A stretch of 21,057 bases of DNA, from the IMG/VR virus record IMGVR_UViG_3300043331_000369, positions 1 to 21,057 of that record. One strand, 5' to 3'. The DNA comes from a virus. This document shows positions 12,141-17,233 of this stretch, one piece after another (positions within the stretch are counted from its first letter, which is position 1; every line of letters begins with the position of its first letter). Both the position numbers and the translations under genes were made by a program. Under the pieces are notes generated by a model, which searched no databases, had not been told where the DNA came from, and saw only the letters and a list, made by a program, of their open reading frames with translations.

Positions 12141-12313
12141 GCCGCCCGCCTCCACGTCCACGGCTGCCACCAAATGCGCGGCGGGTCCATCGCCGCCGCC
12201 TCAAGCTCGGCTTTCACCCGGCGCAACCGGGGATCGTCGCTGAGTTCCAGCGCCGCGATCACGCAGTCCAGCGCCTCAGAGAGTAAGAAGTCGCGTTCCG
12301 TCCAATCGCTCAT
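12137..12313 (-). CDS. Small hypothetical protein (58 residues)
   Basis: The protein starts MSDWTERDFLLSEALDCVIA, continues ALELSDDPRLRRVKAELEAA and ends WWQPWTWRRAA. It has both overlaps expected in this operon: ATGA with the primase-helicase stop at 12310, and ATGA-like overlap of its TGA (12139-12137) with the nuclease ATG at 12140. It fills what would otherwise be a 170-base gap. The first 40 residues are an acidic helix pair; the tryptophan-rich basic tail is striking. Family unknown. Confidence 0.7.
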   Translation of the reverse strand: MSDWTERDFLLSEALDCVIAALELSDDPRLRRVKAELEAAAMDPPRIWWQPWTWRRAA

Positions 12314-14022
12314 GCTCGTACCTCGTGATAGCAGCCGGTGGCCCGGTCATAGGTGAAGAGGGCGTGCCCTTCCTCCCCGGTTTCGCTGAATCGGATTTTT
12401 TGAATATGGACTTGGACCGGCTCATCGCGGTTCGTCAGATCGCGCCAGATCGAGATGCCCGCATCCGCCTTGTTGCGGAAATGGGCGCTGCCAGAGATGT
12501 CCCATAGGCCGGGGAGGGGTTCAATCTTGTCGTCCGTTTTCTTGAGCTTCGTCGGGTGCGCCACGAGCCATAAATGCAGATCGTGATGCCGGGCGAATCG
12601 CCTGAGCGCCCCAAGGCATTCGCTGATGTACTCCGTCTCGGTTTTGCTGGCCGGGCGGCTATGCTCAATTTCGTTCCACGGATCAATCACGAGCCCTTTG
12701 ATGCCCATGCGATAGACCAGGATGCGGGCGCGGTGCAGGATCGCCTCGACGGTTGGCTCTTCTGGCAGGATGAACGCGAAGTGGCGCCCGATCCAGGCAT
12801 CCGCCCAGCGCAGTTCGTCCGGCGTGATACGCGGCGTCGGGCCGTCGTGAAACGGCTTGCCGGTGTAGACGCTGATGAGGCTTGCCACATGCCGGTGAAC
12901 GGGTTGGTTTTCAGGGGAGCAGACGCCGAAGGTCCAGCCGTGACGCACGGCGAGTTTGATGAGCAGTTGATCGAGGAAATGGCTTTTGCCGTGGCCGGGG
13001 ATGCCGGTGACGACCGTCATCAGGCCGGGCCGCACCCGGTAGAGTTTGTCAAGGTTCAGGTAGCCGGATTCGACGCCGCGATCAAAGCCGTGCTGATAGA
13101 GATGCGTCAGATCATGCGACCAGTCGTCGCCGGTAATGAGCCCTTCGACCGGGAACGGCGCGGCGTCCTCAATGCAGGCGGCGAGATAGGTGGGACCGGC
13201 TTGGATAAGGGCGTCATTGGCGTCTTTGATGCCGTCCGGCCAGAGGACGCGACTGCACTTTTCGGGACCGATCCGCCGCGCTAGCTCGTCAAGGAGTTTT
13301 TGGCCCGGCGCGTCGGCGTCCGGCGCGAGGATGATGCGGCGGGCCTGCGAAAAGACGGATTCGGCGCTTTCGAGAAAGGTGAACTTGCTCGTGTAGGCCG
13401 CGGCATCGGGGGCGGGTGCGCCGTCCGGCACGCTCAGGACGTTCGTGAAACCGGCGACTTCGAGGGAGAGTTTGTCGATTTCGCCTTCGACAATGATGAT
13501 GGTATCCGCGCCGGTCACATCATCGAGGCCGTAGAAGATGCGTTCCGCCCCTTTCTCCATGCGGAAATGCTTTTTGCCGCAGCGGTGTTTGGTGTTGACG
13601 TGGATGCCGTCGCGTTCGTAGGGGAAGAGGATGTGCCCGACCTCGGCATCACAAACCGGGCAATATTCGCGGGCGGCGGCAATCCGGTTGCGGTGGAGGA
13701 CCGCCTCACCGATCCCGCGCTCCTCGGCAAACCAGCGGACGGCGTTCGCCCAGACATCGGGCGCGATGGACTCCGGCACCGGGCGCGGCCGTTGATAGGT
13801 TTTCGGCGGCGCGGTGCCATAGGGCGCGGGGCCATCTTTCGCACCGCCCAGCCCGCCGCTCCAACCACAGTGCATACAGAGCCAGGTGCCCTTCTCGACA
13901 TTGACCGACAGGCAGCGGTCGCGGGATTTGCGCCGGGTTGGGCTGCATGTCGGGCACAGCACGTCGATTTCGCCGTGGGCGCCGTGGGGCAGATCAATCC
14001 CGAAATCGGCAAACGTCTTCAT
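12310..14022 (-). CDS. Primase-helicase, T7 gp4/Twinkle-like
   Basis: The protein has 570 residues in three parts. First, a zinc-binding N-terminus with CPTC (residues 23-26) and C-M-H-C-G-W (49-53). Second, a TOPRIM region with IIIVEGEIDKLSLE (Glu179, Glu181), ILAPDADAPG (Asp235, Asp237) and KDANDAL. Third, a RecA-like hexameric helicase with Walker A GIPGHGKS (340-347), SPENQPVHRH, Walker B GLVIDPWNEIEH (about 443-454), LVAHPTKL and ISGSAHFRNKADAGISIWRD. It would unwind DNA at the phage fork, and the N-terminal part may prime. The ATG overlaps the initiator stop (ATGA). The upstream initiator is the natural loader. Confidence 0.92.
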   Translation of the reverse strand: MKTFADFGIDLPHGAHGEIDVLCPTCSPTRRKSRDRCLSVNVEKGTWLCMHCGWSGGLGGAKDGPAPYGTAPPKTYQRPRPVPESIAPDVWANAVRWFAEERGIGEAVLHRNRIAAAREYCPVCDAEVGHILFPYERDGIHVNTKHRCGKKHFRMEKGAERIFYGLDDVTGADTIIIVEGEIDKLSLEVAGFTNVLSVPDGAPAPDAAAYTSKFTFLESAESVFSQARRIILAPDADAPGQKLLDELARRIGPEKCSRVLWPDGIKDANDALIQAGPTYLAACIEDAAPFPVEGLITGDDWSHDLTHLYQHGFDRGVESGYLNLDKLYRVRPGLMTVVTGIPGHGKSHFLDQLLIKLAVRHGWTFGVCSPENQPVHRHVASLISVYTGKPFHDGPTPRITPDELRWADAWIGRHFAFILPEEPTVEAILHRARILVYRMGIKGLVIDPWNEIEHSRPASKTETEYISECLGALRRFARHHDLHLWLVAHPTKLKKTDDKIEPLPGLWDISGSAHFRNKADAGISIWRDLTNRDEPVQVHIQKIRFSETGEEGHALFTYDRATGCYHEVRA

Positions 14023-14861
14023 CCGATGTAGACCTCGCCGGTAATCGCCGCCCTAAGCCCGGAATTGGCGGGAAGGGTCCGGGCATAGGCGAGCCGTTCC
14101 GCCTCCGGCATCGCCATCGCCTCCTTGTAGGTCAACGGGGGTTGCCGTCCGTTCGGTGCCGGCCGTGTGAAGGTTGGGACGTTTCGCATCCAATAGCGCC
14201 ACGCGGCGAGCCAGTCTTTCATCGTTGAGCCTTTCGCCCGGTGATGGTCACGCCACTTCTCGGTTTCGGCGTCAATCCGCTCCGCCGGGACGCCGTAACT
14301 GATCGCCTGTTCGCGCATCTCGTCCGTGACTTCGAAATCATCGGGGAGTTGTGTTGCGCGTTTTTCCTTAGGGGGAATAAAAGGGGGTTTATCTAATACT
14401 TCGTTAGAAGTATTAGAGGTACGGTTAGGTGTCCCGTTACGTGTCCGTGACGTAACGGTTACGTCACCGTTACTGCCCGTTTCCGGGTCTTTATTCTCGC
14501 GGCGGCGTTCCCGTAAACGGCGCTGTCGCTCAGCATTTGCCTCCCGTTGGATCGTCAACCGACCGATGTATTTCTCCCAATTGTGGATGCGAAGTGCGCC
14601 TGTTTCGGGGTCTTGGTCTATGAAACCGACCGTCATCAGGGCGTCAATAAACGCCCCATCTTGGCCTGTCCACAACGCGGCACGTTCAATAACGTTACGC
14701 CGTAACGTTACGTAACCGTTACGGTCGGCGTTATCGACGGACCATAGCCAGAGGCACACCATATGCCCGACGATTTGCGCCTCTGAGCAACCCAACTCAT
14801 CCGCCATCGCGAGCGTCTTGCGGTGATCTTTCAGCGATTGGTGAACTTCAATCCAGGCCAT
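14019..14861 (-). CDS. Replication initiator / helicase loader, DnaD-DnaT-like
   Basis: The protein has 280 residues (ATG 14861; a GTG one codon earlier is possible). The N-terminal winged-helix part reads AWIEVHQSLKDHRKTLAMAD, then a CLWLWSVDNADRNGYVT segment and DALMTVGFIDQDPETGALRI HNWEKYIGR. A basic helix (AERQRRLRERRRENKD) follows, then a low-complexity linker (residues about 125-170). The C-terminal domain contains LPDDFEVTDEMREQAISYGV, ETEKWRDHHRAKGSTMKDWL and AAWRYWMRNVPTF, the DnaT/replisome-organiser signature with DHH-x-AKGS and W-x-x-AWR-x-W. It is immediately followed by the primase-helicase. The linker and winged-helix sequences contain a dense set of short DNA repeats, so the origin may lie in the gene. 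Confidence 0.8.
   Translation of the reverse strand: MAWIEVHQSLKDHRKTLAMADELGCSEAQIVGHMVCLWLWSVDNADRNGYVTLRRNVIERAALWTGQDGAFIDALMTVGFIDQDPETGALRIHNWEKYIGRLTIQREANAERQRRLRERRRENKDPETGSNGDVTVTSRTRNGTPNRTSNTSNEVLDKPPFIPPKEKRATQLPDDFEVTDEMREQAISYGVPAERIDAETEKWRDHHRAKGSTMKDWLAAWRYWMRNVPTFTRPAPNGRQPPLTYKEAMAMPEAERLAYARTLPANSGLRAAITGEVYIG
14393..14416. repeat. Perfect inverted repeat in AT-rich stretch
   Basis: The arms CTAATACTTC (14393-14402) and GAAGTATTAG (14407-14416) flank the loop GTTA. The 10-bp stem is perfect. It encodes part of the linker (NTSNEVLD) of the initiator. Confidence 0.85.
14435..14473. repeat. GTTAC/GTAAC repeat cluster 1
   Basis: Four copies of GTTAC or its complement occur in 39 bases, most extended to CGTTACG or CGTAACGG, in both orientations. 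They lie next to the AT-rich hairpin and inside the linker coding region. Confidence 0.75.
14694..14722. repeat. GTTAC/GTAAC repeat cluster 2
   Basis: Five copies occur in 29 bases, alternating in orientation, with starts at 14694, 14702, 14707, 14712 and 14718. They include the palindrome TAACGTTA at 14703-14710. They lie in the winged-helix coding region (RNGYVTLRRNV). Confidence 0.8.
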
Positions 14862-15066: not shown

Positions 15067-15249
15067 CTACGCACTTTTCCGGGCGTCGATCTTGAGGATG
15101 CGGGCCCGCGGTTCCGTCGCCTCGAGCGCCACCGCCGCAATCCGTCGCCAGACCTCTTGCCGGTGATCGGGCAACCGGTCCCATGCGGGCAGGGCCTTGT
15201 TTGACGCCCACACCGCGTAGAGGCGGGCGGCGAGCGTATCGAGGGTCAT
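15067..15249 (-). CDS. Small hypothetical protein (60 residues)
   Basis: The protein starts MTLDTLAARLYAVWASNKAL, continues with PAWDRLPDHRQEVWRRIAAV and ends KIDARKSA. It is a compact helical protein with W-D-x-L-P-x-H-x-Q-x-x-W-x-x-I, a pattern common in small phage proteins that appear beside replication and nucleotide genes; the function is not known to me. The ATG overlaps the methylase stop (ATGA), so it is coupled to it. It is the last gene before the leader region. Confidence 0.7.
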   Translation of the reverse strand: MTLDTLAARLYAVWASNKALPAWDRLPDHRQEVWRRIAAVALEATEPRARILKIDARKSA

Positions 15250-17233
15250 GACGCTTCCACCTCCGCGAAGAGCGGCGCATCGCCGGTAATCCGCCGCTTC
15301 GCCATCGTCACGTACTCCGGGTTCAGGTCGATCAGGATGCTGTCCCGGCCCAATTGATCGGCGACGAGGCCCACGGTACCGCTCCCGCCGAACGGATCGA
15401 GGCAGACGCAGGGCACCGGCTCGCCGGCGTCGCAGGTGCAACCGGGCTGCCAGCCGATTGTTTCGCCTCCACGCCCAGGGCCGAAGTCCAACTTCGGCCC
15501 TCGTGGTGCTGATTGCGGCGATGAATATGCTTTCGCGGTATAGGTGTCCGTAGATCGACCCGCGCCGTTGTACCCGTTCTCCCGCTCCACCACCCGCCGC
15601 CACGGTGCCCCGCATGCCGGGCACGCGCCCCGTTCACTCGTCCCGGCCAGGATCAGCGGACGGACCAGCTTCGGCGGAAACGTTGCGAAATGCGCCTCTT
15701 TGAATGGCGCGGGGTTGACATCGAGCGCCAGCGGCTCGCCGGACTCGCTCAGGATCAGGCCGAGGGAATCGAAAAAGAGGTCGGAGTTACGGAGGTTACG
15801 GCCGGAACGTTCTTCGTCGGTGCGCTTGCCCTTCTCCCGCCCGTTCCGGTGAACCGATCCGTGAGATCCCGGCCCGGTGTCCCAGCCGTCCGGCGCTTTC
15901 ACGGTATAGGCCGAGCCAGCCCGCTTCACCGCCTCCGCGTCCCAAAAGTAGCGGCTCCGCTTCGTGAGCAGATAGACGTACTCGACGGCGGATGTTGGGC
16001 GGTCGGTCGCGCTCTCCGGCATCGAATTGCGCTTGAGCCAGGGGAGTTGACTGCGGAGATACCAGCCCGGCTCTACGAGCGGCTTGGGTTCTTCACACCA
16101 TGACGGAATGTCGATCTCTTGACGCTGGTTTGCTCGCTTGATGAGGTCGTAGAGCATCTCCCGCTTTTCTTGCTCGGATTGCGGGAGCCGTCCATTGCCA
16201 CGCATCTCGCGGCCGCGCTTGTTGGATAGGTCCAGGTTGTACGCGAGGATGGCCTGCTTGCGCTTGACGATGAGATAGGGATAGATCGCCCGGATCACAT
16301 CGACTGCGGCGTTCCCATCCAACCGCCACCCGTAGCTGTCGAACCTCGAAACGATGCCGCGGCCATCCGTCGTGTTTGCCCGCTGCTTGACCGCCGCTTT
16401 CCCATAGCCGGTGAGTTCCACGCATCGGTCGATCAGCGGCACGTCGTTATTCGTCAAGCTGGTGTAGACCACATAGCCGTCTTGGTATTCCTGCTCAATG
16501 GCCCGGCGATTTGAGCGGTGCCGCCGAATCCCGATGGTGCCCTCGCCGTCGAACATCGCAGCCAACCATGCTCGGTCGCGTTCATCCTTCACGCAGGTCG
16601 GAACGGTGTACGGCTCTTGCAGAGCGAGCGCGAGGCGGGCCGGGACCATCATCAGGTCTTTGGGCTTGAGGCCGTTCTGCCCGCGCGCAAACGTCCCGGC
16701 CTTGTTTCGAACACCGCGCGATGCTTCGGATTGCCGGCCACCGGGATTCAGAAACTCACCGTCTCGCCGCCCCCCCGGATCGTGCGAGCAGTAGCTATCC
16801 CCGAGATTGAGCCAGAGGGTGCCGTCCGGGCGGAGTACTCTCTTCACCTCGCGGAACACGTCCACCAGATGCGCGATGAAGAGGTCCAGCGTCGGCTCTT
16901 GGCCGAGTTCGCCGCGCCAGGCGTTGCAGCGGATGCAGAATGACGAAACAACATGCCTCGCCTGTTGGTCCATCTTCCGGACCTTGGTTTCCGGGTTGCT
17001 AAATCCGCCGAGTGTTGATTTGTACGAGTACCCGCCGCCACTGATTACTTGGCGCTGTCCTGACCAGTCATGGTCACACGTCGCATCCCCGCCCCACACT
17101 TGCGGATCAGTGCCATAACTGCGAAGTCCGTAGTACAGCTTTACGGGGGCGATGTCACGACACACTGAATCGAGTCACTTTCGATCTCGGACAGTCGCTG
17201 CCGGACATCGCCCACCAGGATTTTCACTCCCAT
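15246..17233 (-). CDS. DNA methyltransferase (N6-A/N4-C type) with embedded LAGLIDADG domain; frameshifted near the start
   Basis: The true start is ATG 17233, with AAGGAGGT just upstream. It reads MGVKILVGDVRQRLSEIESD, then SIQCVVTSPP, and hits TAA at 17143-17141. The family continues directly from SPP into YYGLRSYGTDPQVWGGD, which here is found in the -1 frame from about 17132 on. In that frame the gene is open to 15246: C-x-H-x-W, VFREVKRVLRPDGTLWLNLG, DSY, then MMVPARLALALQEP, an inserted homing-endonuclease domain, then GWYLRSQLPWLKRNSMPESA, TDRPTSAVEYVYLLTKRSRY, and the SAM motif CLDPFGGSGTVGLVADQLGR with DLNPEYV. It would protect phage DNA. The catalytic SPPY motif is split by the shift, so activity is doubtful unless the shift is a sequence error. 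Confidence 0.8.
16068..16616 (-). mobile_element. LAGLIDADG homing-endonuclease insertion within the methylase
   Basis: About 181 codons interrupt the methylase between LALALQEP and GWYLRSQLP. The insert has RDRAWLAAMFDGEGTIGIRR (a LAGLIDADG motif in the W-L-A-x-x-x-D-G-E-G form), SLTNNDVPLIDRCVELTGYG, FDSYGWRLDGNAAVDVIRAI and YPYLIVKRKQAILAY. The repeat CGGCTC stands at both ends (16068-16073 and 16611-16616). Removing one copy plus the insert (543 bases) restores a continuous methylase. No intein splice residues are present (no Cys/Ser at the first position, no His-Asn at the end), and the insert is open throughout, so it appears to be carried in the protein. Confidence 0.8.

Follow-up and report, generated by a model that had tools for sequence, protein, structure and literature searches.

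A candidate replication origin within the gene of its own initiator: 11-bp-phased repeats followed by a 5-nt-phased run in two phage initiator families

Introduction

Does the gene of a phage replication initiator carry, in the DNA that encodes its own linker, the origin from which the phage replicates? Origins located inside initiator genes are already known from lambda, SPP1, Tuc2009 and TP901-1, but DNA opening by phage initiators outside the lambda model is poorly known. The question is raised here by a stretch of viral DNA (the window) that comprises the whole of a virus record, 21,057 bases with a G+C content of about 63%, possibly a fragment of a genome. The original prediction, made from this sequence, regarded GTTAC/GTAAC words and a neighboring AT-rich inverted repeat in the initiator gene as origin-like and placed as in lambda.

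Results

The initiator gene and its neighbors

The following features, all on the minus strand, are considered below.

12,310 to 14,022, minus strand: gene of a primase-helicase with Toprim and a DnaB-type helicase, which overlaps the stop of the initiator gene
14,019 to 14,861, minus strand: initiator gene (PHROG 9474), ATG at 14,861, MAWIEVHQ..., stop included
14,371 to 14,387, minus strand: C-run pair CCCCCTTTTATTCCCCC, downstream of the hairpin
14,392 to 14,417, minus strand: AT-rich perfect hairpin TCTAATACTTC-TAAC-GAAGTATTAGA, arms of 11 bp
14,418 to 14,432, minus strand: short 5-nt-phased run ACACC TAACC GTACC, three units
14,433 to 14,473, minus strand: cluster I (iterons) GTAACGGTGACGTAACCGTTACGTCACGGACACGTAACGGG, in the linker and phased at 11 bp; relatives have repeats in the same place with the same spacing
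14,690 to 14,723, minus strand: cluster II CGTAACGGTTACGTAACGTTACGGCGTAACGTTA, five GTTAC/GTAAC words, encoding residues 46 to 58 of the N-domain

The encoded protein matches the replication initiation proteins of PHROG 9474 (1e-35) and has nine other matches, the majority of which are initiator or replisome organizer families. The gene directly next encodes a primase-helicase, as indicated by matches to Pfam families Toprim_4 (1e-9) and DnaB_C (1.1e-7) and to PHROG 239, DNA primase/helicase (1.7e-83). In an AlphaFold2 model of the initiator, for which an alignment of 40 sequences was used as input, the N-domain is predicted with confidence and consists of helices followed by two strands (residues 81–92) that would form a wing, while the linker, roughly residues 131–170, is predicted to be disordered (pLDDT about 50) and the C-domain to be helical. 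A sequence search of the PDB with the initiator returned no match. In the fold search of the PDB many winged-helix proteins appeared near the top, none of them significant, and the designation of the N-domain as a predicted winged helix therefore rests on predicted topology.

Repeats, hairpin and codon use exceed the needs of the protein

The nine GTTAC/GTAAC words claimed for the initiator gene are present, four in cluster I (14,436, 14,452, 14,458 and 14,469) and five in cluster II (14,694, 14,702, 14,707, 14,712 and 14,718). One further word at 14,295 lies outside both clusters and brings the total of the gene to ten. The window as a whole contains 26 such words, a number above the expected 15.0 and not attained in any of 100 dinucleotide shuffles. 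When the synonymous codons of the gene were permuted with the protein kept fixed, ten words arose in only 1 of 20,000 permutations, and the same frequency (1/20,000) was obtained for five words within 40 nt. With codons drawn from the other genes of the window, neither the ten words nor the 40-nt cluster appeared in 20,000 trials. The units GTGACGTAACC, GTTACGTCACG and GACACGTAACG give cluster I an 11-bp phasing. Indeed, a lag of 11 is matched by only 7 of 1000 permutations of the gene and a lag of 22 by none of 1000; the latter we take for a harmonic of 11.

The hairpin, with arms at 14,392–14,402 and 14,407–14,417 and a loop of 4 nt, lies beside cluster I. It is perfect, as had been claimed, but its arms measure 11 bp rather than 10, and an arm of this length was not reproduced in any of 2,000 codon permutations. 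The AT content is 0.66 across positions 14,389–14,432 and 0.73 in the hairpin. The linker (residues 125–172) has a GC3 of 0.40, compared to 0.62 before and 0.76 after it and to 0.68–0.82 in the other genes of the window, which bears out the AT-ending codons noticed earlier. As codon permutations rarely or never reproduce the repeats and the hairpin, the DNA itself is constrained beyond what the protein needs, and the proposal that the DNA sequence is under selection holds. Placement of the elements largely in the linker applies to cluster I and the hairpin, but not to cluster II, which encodes part of the confidently folded N-domain, an unusual place for five of the nine words. Two further elements do not stand out in the window by themselves: the 5-nt-phased run has only three units (p about 0.06), but occupies the position at which relatives have 4–18 units, and the C-run pair recurs in 262 of 2,000 permutations of the gene.

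A blastn search of positions 14,357–14,724 against all phage records retrieved 13 Staphylococcus phages with E=0.4, all of them matching in cluster II. The score by itself proves nothing; what counts is the location. Of the ten matches listed, eight fall in genes whose annotation is replication initiation or replisome organizer, and the other two lie in records that carry no annotation. The match in phage StB12 concerns a PF09681 replisome organiser gene with AATAACGTTACCGTAACGTTACGTAACG in its linker; StB12 shares its iteron words with the window, yet neither lag 5 nor lag 11 is significant in this gene.

A pair of GTTACGG words in the methylase gene, which had been held against the specificity of the clusters, is present at 15,786–15,799, where it encodes RNLRNS. 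It has neither partner repeats nearby nor a comparable context and is probably coincidental. The methylase gene (15,246–17,165, minus strand) is interrupted by an in-frame insert, residues 195–342, which matches an HNH endonuclease PHROG and is flanked on either side by methyltransferase matches; it is perhaps a homing-endonuclease or intein-like insertion.

Distant relatives share the layout of the linker

No close relative was found; the first matches in viral contigs were 32–46% identical over part of the protein. Wider scans yielded 43 loci, many of them within genomes of Clostridia, and some relatives possess a DnaD-type C-domain (DnaB_2). On the gene strand, the linkers of relatives present palindromic repeats, then five-base units, then AT-rich sequence or a hairpin and often a C-run pair. 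The palindromic repeat GTAACGTTAC recurs in several relatives of only 30–36% identity, while others have repeats of the types GTCACG, ACGTGC or GTCC/GGAC. The five-base units are TTACC, TAACC and GTACC, in some cases AGAGT/AGACC. Among 99 relatives, which represent the distinct genes of the window's family (family A), a GTWAC cluster was found in 10, with 5.3 expected. Since GTWAC is thus only one of several repeat types, it is the layout that is conserved and not that word. Of the 99 genes, 28 contain a hairpin whose arms measure 8 bp or more (5.5 expected) and 26 a C-run pair (3.7 expected), the latter across all three reading frames. Distant homologues from many phages and prophages carry, in the same linker stretch, repeats and an unwinding-type segment beyond the requirement of the protein, which argues for the predicted origin.

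Several individual features deserve mention. Family-A C-run pairs are situated downstream of the hairpin or the run, in a quarter of the family. The loops of hairpins that directly follow the 5-nt run often have 4 nt, TAAC or TTAC, with unrelated stems (window, L003, L027, L232), and the initiator gene of locus L326 contains a 20-bp perfect hairpin from position 418 onward. The longest phased run seen, with 18 units, is that of locus L094 (5277–5360 plus flanks), which was apparently extended by in-frame duplications of 15 nt. In locus L004 (5001–6323) an HNH domain (Pfam HNH, 1.3e-5) lies between the initiator N-domain and the putative origin segment, and as judged by eye L017, L033 and L044 have a similar insertion. 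A comparison of linker similarity with the relatedness of the N- and C-domains weakly favored the N-domain, but was discarded because a control coding stretch behaves alike.

Lags of 11 and 5 nt recur in a second initiator family

To assess phasing independently of any motif, we used a lag test that keeps protein and codon use fixed. It was applied to the 99 distinct family-A genes, to 52 distinct genes of a second initiator family (family B) and, as controls, to the longest ORF other than the initiator gene at these loci (95 for A, 44 for B). Comparison of the N-domain profiles of both families detected no homology (hhalign probability 2.5). Lag 5 was significant in 29/99 and 36/52 genes of families A and B, respectively, but only in 2/95 and 0/44 controls; for lag 11 the numbers were 28/99 and 23/52 versus 1/95 and 1/44. 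Further significant lags were 10 (33/99 in A, 40/52 in B), 15 (18/99, 35/52), 20 (9/99, 24/52), 25 (7/99, 14/52) and 22 (13/99, 6/52), and each of the remaining lags reached significance in 0–6 genes. A lag of 3 was not in excess (3/99 in A, 0/52 in B). In all 48 genes with both signals (20/20 in A, 28/28 in B) the 11-bp repeats precede the 5-nt run. C-run pairs are absent from the 52 family-B genes.

The 5-nt step is exact: chains of at least four ACC units at this step were present in 15 of 42 homology-selected genes and in none of the 42 at any other step within 2–9 and 12–14, the only additional steps with such chains being 10, 11 and 15. A repeat of five residues in the peptide would account for a 15-nt period, but not for one of 5 nt.

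A scan of viral contigs for the DNA pattern only, i.e. phased ACC units, returned at least 80 loci. Among the 80 listed, a simple criterion assigned 18 to family-A genes, where the coding strand bears the run, and 27 to family-B genes (MAQRRMFS...ADDDGF), where the run lies on the noncoding strand. The other 35 include several that inspection by eye identified as further initiators; low-complexity arrays account for many of those left.

Family B includes the Lactococcus phages r1t and Tuc2009 (VAQRRMFSKEVTTSDLF). The replisome organizers of Tuc2009 and TP901-1 bind repeat-rich regions in their own genes, which serve as origins (PMC8965321), and the Tuc2009 record is annotated "contains origin of replication". 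In Tuc2009 rep, lags 5 and 22 were each reached in 0/1000 permutations. In r1t rep (ORF11) lag 5 was reached in 0/1000 and lag 11 in 1/1000 permutations; here, GGAACC repeats every 11 nt are followed by AGATA AGAAT AGATT units. The rep gene of TP901-1, whose origin is reported to lie in gene-internal repeats, exhibits neither lag 5 nor lag 11, and the 11/5 layout is therefore not universal. Phage CBW1004C-Prop1, which has the C-domain motif HHRAKGSTMKDW in common with the window, shows the order of GGTAACG repeats, AGAGA units and C-run pair.

Discussion

A probable origin in the initiator gene

The sequence establishes the identity of the initiator, the two clusters, the 11-bp phasing, the hairpin and an order of elements that is conserved across families. 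We consider it very probable that the segment is an origin with initiator-binding repeats. This reading is supported by 11-bp-phased repeats and a hairpin in excess of what codon permutation yields, by the lag 5 and lag 11 excess over controls in 99 plus 52 initiator genes with one order throughout, and by the DNA-only scan, which leads to the initiators of both families, with the pattern on the coding strand in one and on the other strand in the second. In addition, the rep genes of Tuc2009 and r1t carry the same signals, with the Tuc2009 origin reported in that very gene, and a primase-helicase gene follows directly. Counted against it are the shortness of the window's own 5-nt run, the five of nine words in a folded domain, and the GC skew, which in two relatives with complete genomes, Lagaffe and the Paenibacillus phage Harrison, does not switch at the initiator. 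For the overall explanation, namely that the phage carries its replication origin inside the gene for its initiator, we estimate a probability of roughly 0.8.

The alternative that survives best accepts a true origin, but takes the phased run as a generic, easily melted tract, sometimes extended by slippage, in which no register is read; we would give it not quite an even chance. AT-rich tracts are used by lambda (PMC7466680) and SPP1 (PMC6316719), the units differ among lineages (NNACC, AGAGT/AGACC, GGTTA, AGATW), and both the apparent duplications in L094 and the short run of the window fit this idea. However, a melting tract needs no phasing, and many of the runs, for example CTACC GTACC, lack AT-richness. 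Moreover, the exact 5-nt step returns with degenerate units whereas other short lags do not.

Alternatively, the repeats could be operators through which the initiator or a repressor silences the gene, with the hairpin and C-runs acting as mRNA structures and replication starting elsewhere. Operators likewise typically have palindromic sites, and cluster II is near the 5' part of the gene; but the sites are found 140–440 nt into the gene instead of at a promoter and are coupled, in an order that does not vary, to a 5-nt-phased run, and the equivalent region of Tuc2009 is the reported origin, which makes this explanation unlikely. It is highly improbable, and strongly disfavored by the permutation tests, that the repeats simply follow from the protein sequence or from a local bias in codons: the linker is indeed of low complexity (rich in N, T, R and V) with AT-ending codons, and the window's 5-nt run alone would fit, but clusters, hairpin and lags are rarely or never recovered by permutations preserving protein and codons, the run is on the coding strand in one family and on the opposite strand in another, and C-run pairs occupy all three frames.

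A possible mechanism and its implications

If replication starts within the initiator gene, as we infer, initiation might proceed as follows. The winged-helix N-domain would bind the GTNAC repeats, and as the 11-bp phasing places successive copies on one face of the helix, bound initiators could form a dense array. Strain from this array would open the neighboring segment with its 5-nt-phased run and AT-rich hairpin. One opened strand might then be held by more initiator or by loading machinery, perhaps in steps of 5 nt, a step that we propose tentatively. Finally, the primase-helicase encoded by the next gene would be loaded on the opened segment. While the 11/5 layout is plain in the sequences of both families, its stepwise reading in units of five is a proposal.

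In the part of the literature covered by our search we found no earlier description of this layout, and the 5-nt run may be new. That a repeat of one helical turn and a step of 5 nt follow each other in fixed order, both in different families and in the mapped origin of a Lactococcus phage, predicts a register-sensitive function. The layout also offers a sequence rule for locating origins of uncultured phages, and the initiator gene is a case in which the codons of a linker are set largely by a function at the DNA level.

Comparison with known systems

The lambda O gene contains, in its middle, an origin made of repeats and an AT-rich tract (PMC7466680). The predicted likeness to lambda holds for the location in the initiator gene and extends to the helicase-related gene that comes next, but not for the type of origin. 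The window protein lacks Phage_rep_O (PF04492) and has no Pfam match, whereas lambda O scores 5.7e-36; the O gene shows lags of 20, 23 and 24 but neither 5 nor 11, in contrast to lags 11 and 22 of the window, so that spacing is 11 bp rather than 20–24; and the 5-nt-phased run of the window's relatives is absent from lambda. In SPP1, direct repeats and the AT-rich unwinding element of oriL are located within the gene of gp38 (PMC6316719). By this published description, gp38 resembles the window's initiator as an origin-binding protein with sites in its own gene.

Tuc2009 (Rep2009) and r1t (ORF11) share with relatives of the window's initiator repeats at 11 or 22 nt followed by a 5-nt-phased run, in Tuc2009 with the origin inside the initiator gene (PMC8965321 and record annotation). 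They differ in N-domains that are not detectably homologous to those of the window's family, in a run that is longer than that of the window and of the GGTTA/AGATW type, and, as in family B generally, in lacking the C-run pair.

In bacterial oriC, double-strand binding sites are accompanied to one side by short repeats that are recognized as single strands (PMC10201434). By analogy, the 5-nt run holds a position similar to that of the DnaA-trio and the DnaD recognition element next to DnaA boxes, and the DnaB_2 domain of some relatives is of DnaD type. The differences are a step of 5 nt instead of 3 and a phage initiator in place of DnaA; by the lag test, DnaA-trio-like 3-nt phasing is not in excess in either initiator family. 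It is conceivable, if somewhat short of probable, that at least two initiator families without detectable relationship share an origin code, composed of an 11-bp array on one face of the duplex and a run read on one strand at a 5-nt step during DNA opening, and that this two-part code is the phage counterpart of the DnaA-box/DnaA-trio unit with a different step.
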